Assembly (NCBI RefSeq): GCF_036322705.1
Contig: NZ_AP027270.1
Span: forward strand, 986,501-1,050,500
Reading direction: 5' to 3'
Length of the DNA stretch: 64,000 nucleotides
Origin: Maricaulis maris
Lineage (GTDB): Bacteria > Pseudomonadota > Alphaproteobacteria > Caulobacterales > Maricaulaceae
The notes beneath the pieces are model-generated. The model saw only the letters and a program-made list of their open reading frames with translations. It ran no database searches and was not told where the DNA came from. The stretch's first letter is position 1, and every line of letters begins with the position of its first letter. Position numbers and translations under genes: made by a program. Positions 4,435-34,500 of the stretch are shown here, in pieces.

Positions 4435-5808
4435 ATGACCACACCACAGGATGACAGCGCGCTGGGCGAGCTTTTGCCGATCGAGGTGCTTGAGGGGCAT
4501 GTCCGTGATGCGTGGGAGTGGTTTTTGGCCAGCCTGCTCAATCTGGATGTGGCGATCCAGATGGGCCTCATCCTGGCGGCTTTCATCCCCGCCCTGATTT
4601 TCGGACCCCGGTTGCGCGAGGTCGTCGAAAGCCTGACCAAGGGGCGGATCAAGACCGGTCTCGCGCGGCGCCTGCTGACAGCCGCGATTTCGCTGGCGAC
4701 GCCGCTGGCGCTGATCGCGGTGCTGGCGCTGACCCGGATCGTGCTGGGCGCGCTGGATCAACCCTTCGCACTGGTCGACGCGGCGATGAGCCTGATGACG
4801 GCCTGGCTGGTCATCCGCGCCGTGACCCTGATCATCCGCTCGCGCTTCTGGTCCAAGGTCGCCTTCTATGTCGCCTGGCCGGTGGCCGCGCTGGATGTGT
4901 TCGGCCTGCTCGACGATGTCGTGGTCCAGCTGCAGGCGTTGGCGATCCCGCTCGGCGAGACCGATGACGGTCAGCCGGTCGACCTGTCGCTGTTCGATAT
5001 ACTGCGCACGATGATCTATTTCGGGGCGTTGTTCTGGCTCGCCTCGATGGCCGGACGGACCGTCAATACCCAGCTTGAACGGACCGAGGAGATCTCGCCG
5101 GCCCTGCGCGCCCTGATCGCCAAGGTGCTGGGCGTTGCCCTGCCGGTGATCGCGCTGCTGATCGCCCTGCAGCTGACCGGCTTCAACCTCGCCACGCTGG
5201 CGATCTTCTCCGGCGCTGTGGGCATCGGCGTCGGTCTGGGCCTGCAGAAGACCGTCGCCAACTTCGCTGCCGGCTTTACCCTGCTGGCTGACAAGTCGAT
5301 CAAGCCCGGCGATGCGCTTGAGGTGGATGGCCAGTTCGGCTGGGTGACCGGCATGGAGTCGCGCTATGTCTCCATGCGCACGCGTGATGGCACCGAGCAT
5401 CTTATCCCGAACGAGCATTTCATCGCCAACGGGGTGATCAATTGGTCAAAGTCCGACCGTGTCGTGCGTCAGCACGCGCCGTTCGGTGTGTCCTACGACA
5501 CGCTGGACCTGGAGCGTGTCCAGCGCCTTGCGATCGAGGCGGCCAAGACTGTGCCTCGGGTCGTCGCCGAAAAGGACCCGGTCTGCAATCTGATGGATTT
5601 CGGCGACAGCTCGGTCAATTTCGATCTGCGCTTCTGGATTTCCGATCCGGAGAACGGTCTCTCCAATGTCCGCAGTGAGGTCTATGTCGCGATCTGGAAG
5701 AGCTTCCACGAGCACGCGGTCGAATTCCCCTATCCGCAGATTGATCTCCATGTCCGCGATCTGCCGGCCGGCGTGAAGAAACAGATGATGGCCGACAAGC
5801 CGGCCTAG
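4435..5808 (+). CDS. MscS-family mechanosensitive ion channel
   Basis: This 457-residue membrane protein opens under membrane tension to release solutes on osmotic downshock. Several hydrophobic helices precede the pore helix TM3, seen as the glycine/alanine-rich GAVGIGVGLGLQKTVANFAAGF (about residues 259-280). The beta domain follows, with IKPGDALEVDGQFGWV and RDGTEHLIPNEHFI, then the alpha/beta C-terminal domain. The extra N-terminal helices make it longer than E. coli MscS (about 286 residues). It stands alone between repeats and a terminator. Which subfamily member it is cannot be told. Confidence 0.9.
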   Translation: MTTPQDDSALGELLPIEVLEGHVRDAWEWFLASLLNLDVAIQMGLILAAFIPALIFGPRLREVVESLTKGRIKTGLARRLLTAAISLATPLALIAVLALTRIVLGALDQPFALVDAAMSLMTAWLVIRAVTLIIRSRFWSKVAFYVAWPVAALDVFGLLDDVVVQLQALAIPLGETDDGQPVDLSLFDILRTMIYFGALFWLASMAGRTVNTQLERTEEISPALRALIAKVLGVALPVIALLIALQLTGFNLATLAIFSGAVGIGVGLGLQKTVANFAAGFTLLADKSIKPGDALEVDGQFGWVTGMESRYVSMRTRDGTEHLIPNEHFIANGVINWSKSDRVVRQHAPFGVSYDTLDLERVQRLAIEAAKTVPRVVAEKDPVCNLMDFGDSSVNFDLRFWISDPENGLSNVRSEVYVAIWKSFHEHAVEFPYPQIDLHVRDLPAGVKKQMMADKPA

Positions 5809-5978
5809 TCACGCCTCCCACCTGTACGTGTATACCCGTCATTCAACTGTGTTGGCGTTCAAAGAGGCTTTCCCGACAGGTGGTTAGGGAAGGAGCAATG
5901 CAACCTTTGGATATTTTCCCTCGCCGGAACGATGGCGCACGCAAACGGGCGACCATTGACGGGAATACACAGATCTGA

Positions 5979-6010
5979 GGGGTGCGAGCATGGGGCCGCA
6001 CCCCTCTTTT
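5979..6010 (+). terminator. Rho-independent terminator
   Basis: The stem GGGGTGCG / CGCACCCC (5979-5986 with 5997-6004) is followed by TCTTTT. It would stop plus-strand transcripts, presumably from the MscS gene 170 bp upstream, before the convergent oxygenase gene. Confidence 0.65.
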
Positions 6011-6015
6011 CTGAC

Positions 6016-6969
6016 CTAGTTCAACAAGCCGATCTCGCGCAGGCGCTGGTTTAGATAGTCATTGGCACGCATCGGCTCGGGATATTTGTCCGGATTGTCC
6101 GGCCCGCTGCAGCCCGGCAGTGTCGTGATCATGTAGTCCGGCCGATAGTGAAGGAAGAATGGCAGGGAATAGCGCGAGAAGCCGGTGCGAGCGCCGGCCG
6201 GATTGATTACGCGGTGCTGGGTCGAGGGCAGGAGGTCATTGGTCGAGCGGGCCAGCATGTCGCCCATATTGACCACCAGACAGCCTGGCGGCGGGTTCAT
6301 GTCGATCCACTCGCCGCTGCGCGTCTTCACTTGCAGCCCGGGCTCCTCGGCACCGAGCAGCAGGGTGATTGTGTTGATGTCGCCATGCGCCTCGGCCCGG
6401 ATAGAGCCACCCGGATCACCGGTGACCGGCGGGTAATGCAGAAGGCGCATCACCGAATTGCCGTCCTTCACCGTGTCATCGAAGAAGCTCTCCTCGAGGC
6501 CGAGATCGAGGGCGATCGCGCGCAGGACCTGTACACCCAGCTGGTCGAAGGCGTCATAGAGACCGTGCACGACGGTGCGCCAGTCGTCGATCTCGGCGGG
6601 GACCAGGTTGGGTGCCATGTCGGCTTCGTACTTGTGACCGGCCGGCAGGTCGCGGCCGACATGCCAGAATTCCTTCAGGTCGACATGCTTGGCGTCCTTG
6701 GCAATCTCCTTGCCGAAGGGCGTGTAGCCGCGCGCGCCGCCACCGCCCTCGACCAGGTATTGCATCTTGGTCGCTTCCGGCAGGGCGAAGAATTCCGCTG
6801 CCTTGTCATAGGCCGCCTTGATCAGCGCCGGGTCGAGTCCATGATCAGAGATCGCGGCAAAGCCGTATTCGCGGAAGCTGCGGCCCAGCTCGGCCGCAAA
6901 GCGCGCCTTGTCAGTCGCGGCCAGCGCCATGGAGACGGGCGGAAATCGGGAAAGCGTATCGGACGGCAT
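6016..6969 (-). CDS. Isopenicillin-N-synthase-like 2-oxoglutarate/Fe(II) oxygenase
   Basis: The 317-residue protein has the non-haem DIOX layout: an N-terminal DIOX_N part (REYGFAAISDHGLD) and a C-terminal 2OG-Fe(II) domain. The iron ligands are visible as HGD in RAEAHGDINTITLL and the distal His in PSTQHRVINP, with the co-substrate Arg in FSRYSLPFFLH. I chose the ATG at 6969 because AGGAG lies eight bases before it; a longer reading adds 33 residues of unlikely sequence. Bacterial homologues are usually of unknown substrate. The name does not imply beta-lactam synthesis, and there are no beta-lactam genes nearby. Confidence 0.85.
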   Translation of the reverse strand: MPSDTLSRFPPVSMALAATDKARFAAELGRSFREYGFAAISDHGLDPALIKAAYDKAAEFFALPEATKMQYLVEGGGGARGYTPFGKEIAKDAKHVDLKEFWHVGRDLPAGHKYEADMAPNLVPAEIDDWRTVVHGLYDAFDQLGVQVLRAIALDLGLEESFFDDTVKDGNSVMRLLHYPPVTGDPGGSIRAEAHGDINTITLLLGAEEPGLQVKTRSGEWIDMNPPPGCLVVNMGDMLARSTNDLLPSTQHRVINPAGARTGFSRYSLPFFLHYRPDYMITTLPGCSGPDNPDKYPEPMRANDYLNQRLREIGLLN

Positions 6970-32229: not shown

Positions 32230-33939
32230 CTAGCGATCGTTTGACACCGACTGTTCGGCGACAGCCTCGTCGCTGTCATTGGCGACCTGGTCCGCGAGGC
32301 TGGCGGGCAGGCGGATCGTGAAGCATGAGCCTTCGCCCGGGGTCGAGCTGACCCCGATATCACCACCATGCAGCTCGACCGCGCGCTGGCACAGGGCAAG
32401 GCCGATCCCGGTGCCCTCATAGGCCTCGCTGCCATGCAAACGCTGGAAGACCTCGAAAATCCGGGTGAAATAGGCCTTGTCGATTCCGATCCCGTTATCG
32501 GTGACGCTGATGCGGACATAGTCGCCGGCCCGGCTCGCCTGAACGCGCACATGGGGCGCGACATCGCGGCGGTATTTGACCGCGTTGGAGACGAGGTTCT
32601 GCAGGGTGCGAACGAGCAGGAAGCGGTCGGCATGGATGGGCGTGTCGAGCGACCACTCCACACGGGCCCCGGCCTCGGCGATGACGGCGCCGAGCAGTTC
32701 CTCGATTTCAGCGATGAGGGTCTGGGTGTCGATCCGTTCGATCTTCGCGGTCTGGCGCTCGGCCTTGGTATAGGTCAGCAGGTCCTGGACCAGGCGTTGC
32801 GCCCGGTCGGCACCGCGGTTGATCCGTTCCAGCATGTCCCGCGAGCGCTCATCGAGATCGAGTTGGCGCTCGACCCGGATCGAGGAAATCCCCTTCATGG
32901 CCCTTAGCGGTGCCTGCAGATCGTGGGAGGCGTGCGAGGCAAATCGCTCAAGCTCGGCATTCTTGGCCGCAATGATTGCGTTCGACTGGCGCAGGGCTTC
33001 CGTCTTGCGGGCGACCTCGCGCCGGACTTCGTCGGCGCGCTGGGCGTCCTTGAGCGAGATGGCGCCAATCGTGATCGTGGCGAACAGGGCCGAGAACAGG
33101 GCGACCCAGGGCAGGGGGGCGGTCTGCATCAGGAAGGAGCGCCGGGGCAGCAGGGCGGCGCGGATATCGGAGAAGGGGGCCTGAGCGGTCCAACGCACCA
33201 GGAAGGGGGCGCTGTTCAGCGCCGAGGGAATATTGGCCTCTTCATTGGCGGCGGCCATTTGCAGCTCAACCGAGCTTGCGAGCACATAGGTTGGGGCGCG
33301 GTCGGCAATGGTCGCAACGACCCAGATCGGATCAATGCTTCCCACCGGACTGGCCAGCATGACCTCGAAATCCGAGACGACATAGGCCCAGGCGCCGGGC
33401 CGGGTCTCAACCCTCTGGGCGAGCGCGAAGCGGCTGTTGCGGCCATTGTCATCGACGAGGGGCAGGATGATCGGGGCATTGCCGCTGGTCTCGCGCGGCA
33501 TCAGACCCCGGACCTGTTCGGCCACCTGGTTGGCGATCGTGGCATTGATCGAGACGGTCGCTGAGCCCGGCTCCACAATGCCCATGTCACGCACCACGGG
33601 GATGCGCTGCGTGAGTTCGGCGGCGCGGAAAATCTCGATGGCGGCGGCCGGATCGAGCCCGCTCTGGACAGCTTGCTGAAGCTGGCGGAGTTCGACATCG
33701 AGGGTGGCCATGGACCGGTCCAGCTCTCCGGTTCGTGCGACGGCGAAGCTGCGGAAGTCACGCTCGATGCTGCGCGTCTGCCCGACCAGGGTCGCAAAGA
33801 AGAGCAACATCGACACCATGATGCCGAAGAGAATGATGGCCACCGGCGTCCGATAGGCGTGAAGAAGCCCGGACAGGCTCTCATAGTCACTTGCATCACC
33901 GCCAATGCGGGGCTTGGGGCTCGAAGCGCGGTTGGCCAA
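32230..33939 (-). CDS. Membrane sensor histidine kinase with periplasmic CHASE-like domain
   Basis: The 569-residue protein has helices near residues 32-52 and 275-296. They enclose about 220 residues of periplasmic sensor that could be a CHASE domain (an inference from the early helical FRSFAVARTGELDRSMATLDVELRQL region, residues 62-88). A short coiled coil leads to the H box ERFASHASHDLQAPLRA with phospho-acceptor His339, then the N box LQNLVSNAVKYRR and the G boxes DNGIGID and EGTGIGLAL. There is no receiver domain. It starts 9 bp after the ethylene-receptor-like gene on the same strand, so the two are surely cotranscribed. The response regulator is not in the window. Confidence 0.85.
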   Translation of the reverse strand: MANRASSPKPRIGGDASDYESLSGLLHAYRTPVAIILFGIMVSMLLFFATLVGQTRSIERDFRSFAVARTGELDRSMATLDVELRQLQQAVQSGLDPAAAIEIFRAAELTQRIPVVRDMGIVEPGSATVSINATIANQVAEQVRGLMPRETSGNAPIILPLVDDNGRNSRFALAQRVETRPGAWAYVVSDFEVMLASPVGSIDPIWVVATIADRAPTYVLASSVELQMAAANEEANIPSALNSAPFLVRWTAQAPFSDIRAALLPRRSFLMQTAPLPWVALFSALFATITIGAISLKDAQRADEVRREVARKTEALRQSNAIIAAKNAELERFASHASHDLQAPLRAMKGISSIRVERQLDLDERSRDMLERINRGADRAQRLVQDLLTYTKAERQTAKIERIDTQTLIAEIEELLGAVIAEAGARVEWSLDTPIHADRFLLVRTLQNLVSNAVKYRRDVAPHVRVQASRAGDYVRISVTDNGIGIDKAYFTRIFEVFQRLHGSEAYEGTGIGLALCQRAVELHGGDIGVSSTPGEGSCFTIRLPASLADQVANDSDEAVAEQSVSNDR

Positions 33940-33948
33940 GCGGGCGCC

Positions 33949-34332
33949 TTATCCTTCTCGTGTTTCGATGCGGGTGAAGCGGTCCAGCAGCACCGGCACC
34001 AGCGGCAGCATCAAGACGGCTGTGGCAATCGAGGCTGCAGCCGTCAGGAGTTTGAGCACGGCTTCGATGTAGTAGAGCGGATACCAGAGCACGACGATAT
34101 TCATCACGTGATTGATGCCGCAGAACAAAATGAAAATGCCGAACATGATGAACGCCCAGCGAAAGGGCAGGGCCTTTTCGATGCGACGCAGGAAGAAGGT
34201 GATGGTGACGGGGATCGAGAAGTAGGCCAATGCGATGGCCAGGTCGGCAATGACATGCATGCCGAGGAGTTCGGGGCGCCAGAGATAACACATGCCGTGC
34301 GGCATGAAATTGTTGAGATCGAAATAGCCCAT
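33949..34332 (-). CDS. Stand-alone ethylene-receptor-like (ETR1-type) copper-binding membrane domain
   Basis: The 127-residue protein has three hydrophobic helices (about 23-47, 57-80, 88-115). Read against the ethylene-binding domain of plant ETR1, the key residues are all present: Asp30 (IADL), Tyr37, Ile40 and Pro41 (LAYFSIP), and Ile68, Cys71 and His75 (FILFCGINH). They match ETR1 D25, Y32, I35, P36, I62, C65 and H69. Cys and His four apart bind Cu(I) in the plant receptor. The start PHGMCYLWRPELL is the form I recall from bacterial versions. Unlike most known cases there is no attached kinase or output domain; the kinase is a separate gene 9 bp downstream. Ethylene binding is inferred, not shown. 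Confidence 0.88.
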   Translation of the reverse strand: MGYFDLNNFMPHGMCYLWRPELLGMHVIADLAIALAYFSIPVTITFFLRRIEKALPFRWAFIMFGIFILFCGINHVMNIVVLWYPLYYIEAVLKLLTAAASIATAVLMLPLVPVLLDRFTRIETREG

Positions 34333-34470: not shown

Positions 34471-34500
34471 CGGCCTTTCCCACGGGGGTGGGAAAGGCCG
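34471..34500. repeat. Perfect 13-bp inverted repeat
   Basis: CGGCCTTTCCCAC pairs with GTGGGAAAGGCCG across a GGGG loop. It lies between the lipoprotein gene (stop at 34569, minus) and the ethylene-receptor-like gene. No clean U-tract follows on either strand, so terminator function is plausible but unproven. Confidence 0.6.

Follow-up and report, generated by a model that had tools for sequence, protein, structure and literature searches.

Here we analyse a stretch of 64,000 nucleotides from the genome of Maricaulis maris (contig NZ_AP027270.1, positions 986,501 to 1,050,500; hereafter the window, the genome being 3.14 Mb in a single contig) and, within it, two adjacent genes on the minus strand, one encoding a short membrane protein that consists of an ETR1-type ethylene-binding domain (EBD) and the other a sensor histidine kinase. 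The original prediction, made from the sequence alone, was that these two proteins form a receptor in which the membrane domain passes its signal to the kinase. The features of the pair on which our analyses bear are the following, with positions counted along the window (TM, transmembrane; aa, amino acids).

33949 to 34332, minus strand: stand-alone ETR1-type EBD protein of 127 aa, with three TM helices and without an output domain (PF25487, seven residues and TM segments).
34288 to 34302, minus strand: PHGxC motif (P11-H12-G13-M14-C15) before TM1 of the EBD, from the count of this motif in EBDs.
34108 to 34122, minus strand: codons C71 to H75 in TM2 of the EBD, where C71 and H75 are predicted to ligate Cu(I), from the alignment to ETR1 C65 and H69.
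32230 to 33939, minus strand: partner sensor histidine kinase of 569 aa with HisKA and HATPase_c, its TTG start lying 9 bp past the EBD stop.
33787 to 33843, minus strand: kinase TM1 (aa 33-51), within the best conserved region outside HisKA (identity over region 23-58; motif common to distant pairs).
33127 to 33765, minus strand: periplasmic sensor (aa 59-271), of dCache/CHASE-type fold in the predicted model (AlphaFold2, AF2; Foldseek).
33052 to 33108, minus strand: kinase TM2 (aa 278-296), from hydropathy.
32755 to 32952, minus strand: HisKA dimerisation and phosphoacceptor domain with the HASHDLQAP box (aa 330-395; PF00512, E=1.1e-11).
32302 to 32628, minus strand: HATPase_c catalytic domain (aa 438-546; PF02518, E=4.6e-28).

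The match of the 127-residue protein to the ETR1_N family of Pfam (PF25487; E=2.4e-33 and 114.7 bits, with a cut-off of 27) agrees with the domain identity originally proposed, and its open reading frame (ORF) has an ATG start and a genuine stop. In the alignment D30, Y37, I40, P41, I68, C71 and H75 correspond to D25, Y32, I35, P36, I62, C65 and H69 of ETR1, bearing out the claim that the seven essential residues are kept, the Cu(I) ligands Cys71 and His75 among them, and K94 aligns to the helix-3 lysine, K91 of ETR1. Hydropathy analysis placed hydrophobic segments at residues 22-40, 64-82 and 98-116, and AF2 predicted helices at 20-50, 58-83 and 87-132 in the EBD part of an artificial read-through chain, the last helix crossing the joint after residue 127. 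The protein ends 11 residues past the third hydrophobic segment and, as far as its sequence tells, is confirmed as an intact ETR1-type EBD that lacks an output domain and stands alone, as had been predicted. PDB sequences contained no relative of it at E<=1 and NCBIfam no useful family. It is the only EBD of its genome above the Pfam cut-off; a second match, of 22.8 bits, is sub-threshold and lies in another membrane protein, presumably DUF2306-like, and was rejected as a second EBD. The canonical ethylene receptor holds EBD and output in one polypeptide; in the window and in seven other Maricaulis genomes these are separate ORFs. Published work describes seven residues as required for binding, gives C65 a necessary role in retaining the copper and K91 a part in receptor output, and reports ethylene binding by residues 1-130 of the bacterial receptor AzoEtr1 (PMC11819568).

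The gene that follows encodes, again as predicted, a kinase with a periplasmic sensor of its own, in which the TM segments 33-51 and 278-296 flank a periplasmic region of about 225 residues and are followed by HisKA and HATPase_c. This kinase looks competent because it has the H, N, G1 and G2 boxes, as do its seven Maricaulis orthologues. Mean identity between the window and these orthologues is very uneven along the protein, reaching 82% in HisKA, 76% in the TM1 region (23-58), 65% in HATPase and 63% in TM2, and falling to 39% in the periplasmic sensor. The description of this sensor as CHASE-like stood at the level of fold class and found no counterpart in Pfam, where none of the sensor families attains its cut-off, whether with the window kinase or with the periplasmic portion of nine tested relatives: CHASE (PF03924) has no match in the window kinase and a single sub-threshold one among the nine (E=0.035, L133), and dCache (PF02743) has none in the window kinase and sub-threshold ones in four of the nine, the best with 27 bits against a cut-off of 45 (L090). 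The AF2 model of the kinase N-terminus, built with 17 sequences (pLDDT 80, pTM 0.67), gave nine Foldseek matches in the PDB at E<=0.001, KinD, LuxQ, the rpHK1S sensor and PcrK among them, all with modest scores. The CHASE protein PcrK (PDB 6k62) ranked ninth and was a weak match (E=9.9e-4, TM-scores 0.38 and 0.45). In the model, then, the sensor resembles the dCache/CHASE class, a likeness of fold class only and with modest scores, and its specific assignment to CHASE was not confirmed, given the missing Pfam match and the weak fold match to PcrK. A PDB search with the AF2 model of the artificial EBD-kinase read-through chain matched little beyond the sensor part.

We turn to the distribution of the two genes within the genus. 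The named relatives returned by the search were all from Maricaulis (seven loci), and when 19 genomes of the genus were searched, that of the window included, the EBD was present in eight of them and a kinase aligning over nearly its full length in exactly the same eight (45-68% identity in the seven others), the best kinase match of the remaining 11 spanning the kinase core only; at most the 22 best kinase candidates were scored in each genome. All eight carriers encode the EBD in an ORF of its own, 125-131 aa long, with the kinase directly after it, and the seven orthologous EBDs are 78-90% identical to that of the window. The order of genes is also the same in the eight, namely PKHD hydroxylase, lipoprotein, EBD, kinase, TrhO-type rhodanese and a glutathione S-transferase (GST)-like protein, where PKHD and rhodanese were named by Pfam and GST and TrhO by resemblance. 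Six of the 11 genomes without the EBD, those with a near-full lipoprotein match, were examined at this site. Three of them (G006, G015 and G012) have intact flanks, a gap of about 90-150 bp between the lipoprotein and TrhO genes and no EBD or kinase match in the stretch examined (E 1e-4), and the other three (G002, G004 and G005) have no TrhO match adjoining the lipoprotein. In a tree of five flanking genes (TonB being absent for L085) the three empty genomes are placed beside three different carriers, which requires at least three changes. The EBD and kinase genes are therefore gained or lost together, repeatedly and at one site; their pairing exceeds chance, and their joint retention and loss suggest that the two proteins form one two-part receptor.

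Stand-alone EBDs are not confined to Maricaulis. PF25487 matched in genome samples of the Alphaproteobacteria (28 of 385 genomes), the Pseudomonadota (29 of 398, one of the 29 below the cut-off), the order and the family of genome G295 (9 of 114 and 9 of 104) and the family of genome G064 (4 of 60). Separately, EBD-like matches occurred on 19 plasmid records. Most matches in the class and phylum samples lie within long open frames. The order of G295 has intact stand-alone EBDs in eight genomes (L090, L133, L134, L135, L136, L137, L145 and L146), genus g34 has them in four (L091, L147, L148 and L149) and G192 has one (L089); a histidine kinase comes directly after the EBD in all 13. The linkage to a kinase in homologues, on which the prediction had been made to depend, thus holds for these 13 as well as for the eight Maricaulis carriers. 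Two TM segments surround a periplasmic region in every one of the 21 partner kinases, which belong to four groups, with a third hydrophobic stretch inside the periplasmic region in that of L085. Of 22 stand-alone EBD frames examined, the only one that does not precede a two-TM sensor kinase is in G120 (L088, 4465-6264), where it lies beside a 229-aa kinase frame with HisKA from residue 36; this is probably a fused receptor broken by an apparent frameshift, and we counted it as such, outside the tally of split pairs.

The remaining EBDs behave differently in a way that seems to follow a rule. In a table of 81 EBDs, 59 belong to long-tailed (fused) proteins, and 58 of these have no further TM segment in the available tail, the exception being marginal (1.62); 23 of the 59 run off their locus, the tails seen measure 240-490 residues and Pfam was run on L093 and L150 only. 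It seems, then, that the EBD is fused to output parts devoid of membrane segments and separate where the kinase brings its own. Both kinds occur in a single family: in G885, L133 is a split pair and L152 a fused protein. The table omits matches over the cut-off for which no locus was at hand (G335:C39, G435:C1:454842, G253:C31:17932 and G139:C51 and, from the Pseudomonadota, G567:C233 and a 48-aa frame in G678), two above the Pfam cut-off that our own profile missed (G320, L048; G697, L121) and two below the cut-off (G788, L122; G253:C139), and our judgement on pairing excludes L092, a 101-aa frame of G253:C31 whose contig ends close by.

Counted from the base after the EBD stop, the closest start of the kinase lies at -20 to +13 nt in all 17 measured pairs (no start deeper than 30 nt within the EBD gene was admitted, and the four pairs of genus g34 are outside this set), and this tight spacing suggests that translation of the two genes may be coupled. 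The same pairs speak to the idea that the window holds a single fused receptor, either split by a sequencing error or produced through read-through of its stop codon. The window kinase does continue the reading frame of the EBD, with one TAA between them, but the stops vary among pairs (TAA, TAG and TGA), as do the frames, a shared frame occurring in 4 of 17 pairs, near the third expected by chance, and the two ORFs are separate in all eight Maricaulis genomes. We therefore rejected read-through and a broken fusion for the window pair, and we rate their probability as close to zero.

Phylogenetic analysis of the EBDs grouped those of Maricaulis, the order of G295 and G192 (17 rows) in one clade with support of 100/93, in a tree with few columns, bootstrap values that had not settled and flagged long branches, from which L043, a partial domain, was left out. 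The kinases of this clade have a TM1 motif in common, and 15 of its 17 EBDs keep all seven ETR1 residues. The four EBDs of genus g34 are distant from the clade, on a long branch, and their partner kinases carry CHASE3 (PF05227) in four of four. These EBDs (L091, L147, L148 and L149) have N at the position of D25 in every case and Y at that of K91, the other six of the seven residues being kept in three of the four and the fourth (L143) also having L for I35. Stand-alone EBDs with a kinase have thus probably arisen twice, once in the 17-row clade that includes Maricaulis and once, with CHASE3 kinases, in genus g34. Fission of a fused receptor belonging to the family itself is not favoured as their source, the fused EBDs of four family-mates of Maricaulis (G022, G025, G027 and G031) lying outside the 17-row clade and elsewhere in the tree.

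Examination of the kinase N-terminal module with a profile, in which at most the five best candidates of each genome were scored, identified full-length matches only in G000, G192 and G295 among 372 genomes and only in G000 among 398. The remaining matches are weak (<=50 bits) and nearly all partial, and no full-length module without an EBD was found in either set. This bears on whether the two genes could be merely co-regulated neighbours, the EBD serving another kinase or storing copper while the kinase senses its periplasmic ligand alone. Such a view draws on the fact that the contact between EBD and kinase is a presumed one and that the model shows a complete periplasmic sensor domain; yet it has to account for the exact co-occurrence in the eight carriers together with the joint absence, for a gene order and close spacing that recur in distant genomes and for the lack of the full-length module without an EBD in the samples, and we consider it unlikely.

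Taking all these results together, we favour a split two-subunit ethylene receptor in which a Cu(I)/ethylene-type membrane subunit acts on the sensor kinase through membrane contacts, and we assign to it a probability of roughly 0.6. The 127-residue EBD, most probably dimeric, would lie in the inner membrane, would hold Cu(I) through C71 and H75 and would bind ethylene or another small ligand there. Having no cytoplasmic output domain past the few residues after its third segment, it would have to signal through the membrane, by packing against TM1 and TM2 of the kinase encoded by the adjacent gene, with TM1 as the proposed contact site. Binding of the ligand would then change the geometry of the kinase TM segments and coiled coil and, with it, autophosphorylation, upward or downward. 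Since the kinase has its own periplasmic sensor of dCache/CHASE type, the complex would read two inputs, this sensor being the second. The original prediction of a two-protein receptor is in this manner supported in part, by the domain, its stand-alone state, the kinase linkage and the joint absence at one site in three genomes, and beyond these the data show the gene order with its tight spacing, the conserved residues, recurrence in other groups and a distinct class of kinase; it is the ligand (ethylene, copper or an olefin) and the contact between EBD and kinase that we infer.

Several observations weigh against such a receptor. Two of the 11 Maricaulis genomes without an EBD are only 65-69% complete. 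Every full-length match of the N-terminal module is a member of the query alignment, so that the profile result amounts to absence elsewhere in the samples and not to new cases. Among the ORFs read we noticed no copper gene next to the window pair, no search aimed at one having been made, and no response regulator was noticed among the ORFs adjoining the window kinase. Lastly, the partner kinase is kept in two relatives whose copper site is damaged, the copper cysteine being lost in L130/L136 (G801; 5728-6249) and nearly the whole site, including the copper cysteine and histidine, in L131/L137 (G810; 4548-4994); copper and ethylene are therefore not the mode of the subunit there. With gene order and partner kept in the absence of copper ligands, these two relatives would fit an EBD that helps to assemble the kinase or serves it structurally and whose ligand site is unused in signalling. 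Retention of all seven residues in most members of the clade speaks against an unused site, as does the identity of the Maricaulis EBDs, twice or more the mean of the kinase sensor (see above), and we regard this explanation as unlikely.

The identity of the signal deserves separate consideration, because the same two-subunit complex could have copper or its redox state as natural signal, the EBD sensing Cu(I) in the membrane and gating the kinase. The Cu ligands are retained, and among the 81 EBDs the PHGxC motif is present in 61 of the 73 that have both ligands and in none of the eight that have not, a count over related rows for which a test value is not a clean probability. PHGxC is a possible candidate for a copper entry or capture site, which would be extracytoplasmic if the topology is that of ETR1. 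Moreover, a copper-chaperone-like gene of the SCO1/SenC family (PF02630) lies directly upstream of the EBD in three of the eight pairs from the order of G295, as follows.

L090, 5288-5851: SCO1/SenC gene upstream of a stand-alone EBD.
L134, 4399-5007: SCO1/SenC gene upstream of a stand-alone EBD.
L135, 3749-4336: SCO1/SenC gene upstream of a stand-alone EBD.

In the other five pairs, however, no SCO1-like ORF was seen by eye in the stretch read (only about 900 bases upstream in L133), none was noticed beside the window pair, and the conservation extends to all seven ethylene-binding residues of ETR1, beyond the Cu ligands alone. We hold copper as the natural signal to be rather unlikely and retain the split ethylene receptor as our preferred interpretation.

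The surroundings of the pairs offered further observations. In the window, the interval that separates the EBD gene from the lipoprotein gene upstream of it holds the following element.

34471 to 34500, minus strand: perfect GC-rich inverted repeat with 13-bp arms, from the sequence.

This putative terminator of the upstream transcript may leave EBD and kinase as a unit of their own. GC content is about 0.57 in the window between 56001 and 64000 and 0.61-0.67 across the remainder. In other genomes, a single-domain response regulator comes after the pair in seven of seven loci (L090, L133, L134, L135, L137, L145 and L146; Pfam was run on the L134 copies only), a response-regulator/kinase protein comes after the pair in six of those seven (L146 was not read that far), and a gene for an ABC1-type atypical kinase is upstream near the pair in L135 (by Pfam) and in L137, L145 and L146 (by resemblance).

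Placing the Maricaulis pair among known systems shows both likenesses and differences. A dCache-type kinase sensor with a separate sensing subunit is known from LuxP-LuxQ of Vibrio; LuxP, unlike the membrane gas-binding EBD, is a soluble periplasmic binding protein. AzoEtr1, SynEtr1, GeiEtr1 and GeiEtr2, the bacterial receptors with a domain layout given in the texts cited, are all fused. AzoEtr1 of Azospirillum brasilense shares the bacterial EBD, the seven residues, the helix-3 lysine and the histidine kinase output, but is one EBD-PAS-kinase polypeptide, whereas Maricaulis has two separate proteins, of which the kinase carries a TM-flanked periplasmic sensor of its own; the azoEtr1 gene has a co-transcribed neighbour that is taken as its response regulator (PMC11819568). 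In SynEtr1 of Synechocystis the EBD likewise feeds a histidine kinase with a second input, which is light, but there EBD, cyanobacteriochrome and kinase are fused, and in Maricaulis the second input would be periplasmic and on the other protein (PMC6682694). Action in trans of an EBD protein on another kinase has a precedent among the plant ETR/ERS receptors, as OsERS2 inhibits the separate kinase MHZ1/OsHK1 in rice; OsERS2 does so mainly through its GAF domain and on a predicted cytoplasmic kinase, in contrast to the Maricaulis EBD, which has no cytoplasmic domain and a membrane kinase as partner (PMC6981129). Bacterial EBD proteins are described with a wide range of output domains (PMC7700396), and PcrK, the CHASE-type cytokinin-sensing kinase of Xanthomonas, resembles the predicted model of the window kinase in the fold class of its periplasmic sensor (PDB 6k62); the part of the text cited mentions no EBD partner for it (PMC7700396), and its fold match is weak and the window kinase without a CHASE match in Pfam. 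In the open PMC literature, titles and abstract beginnings among the matches listed held no stand-alone EBD with a separate kinase, and we do not claim that none has been published.

How the three-helix EBD relays its state to a kinase is still debated. The chances appear to us evenly balanced that the split receptors form a distinct alphaproteobacterial class, in which a separate gas-sensing EBD subunit would be clipped through the membrane onto kinases with periplasmic sensors (dCache-type or CHASE3), with probably two origins, two inputs and loss of the copper site in some lineages. An EBD with nothing cytoplasmic would make signal relay directly testable, its effects being possible only through helix contacts and the two proteins being made and mixed separately, and the relatives that lack the copper ligands and keep the partner kinase are natural controls. 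If our interpretation is correct, ethylene sensing would extend to marine alphaproteobacteria.

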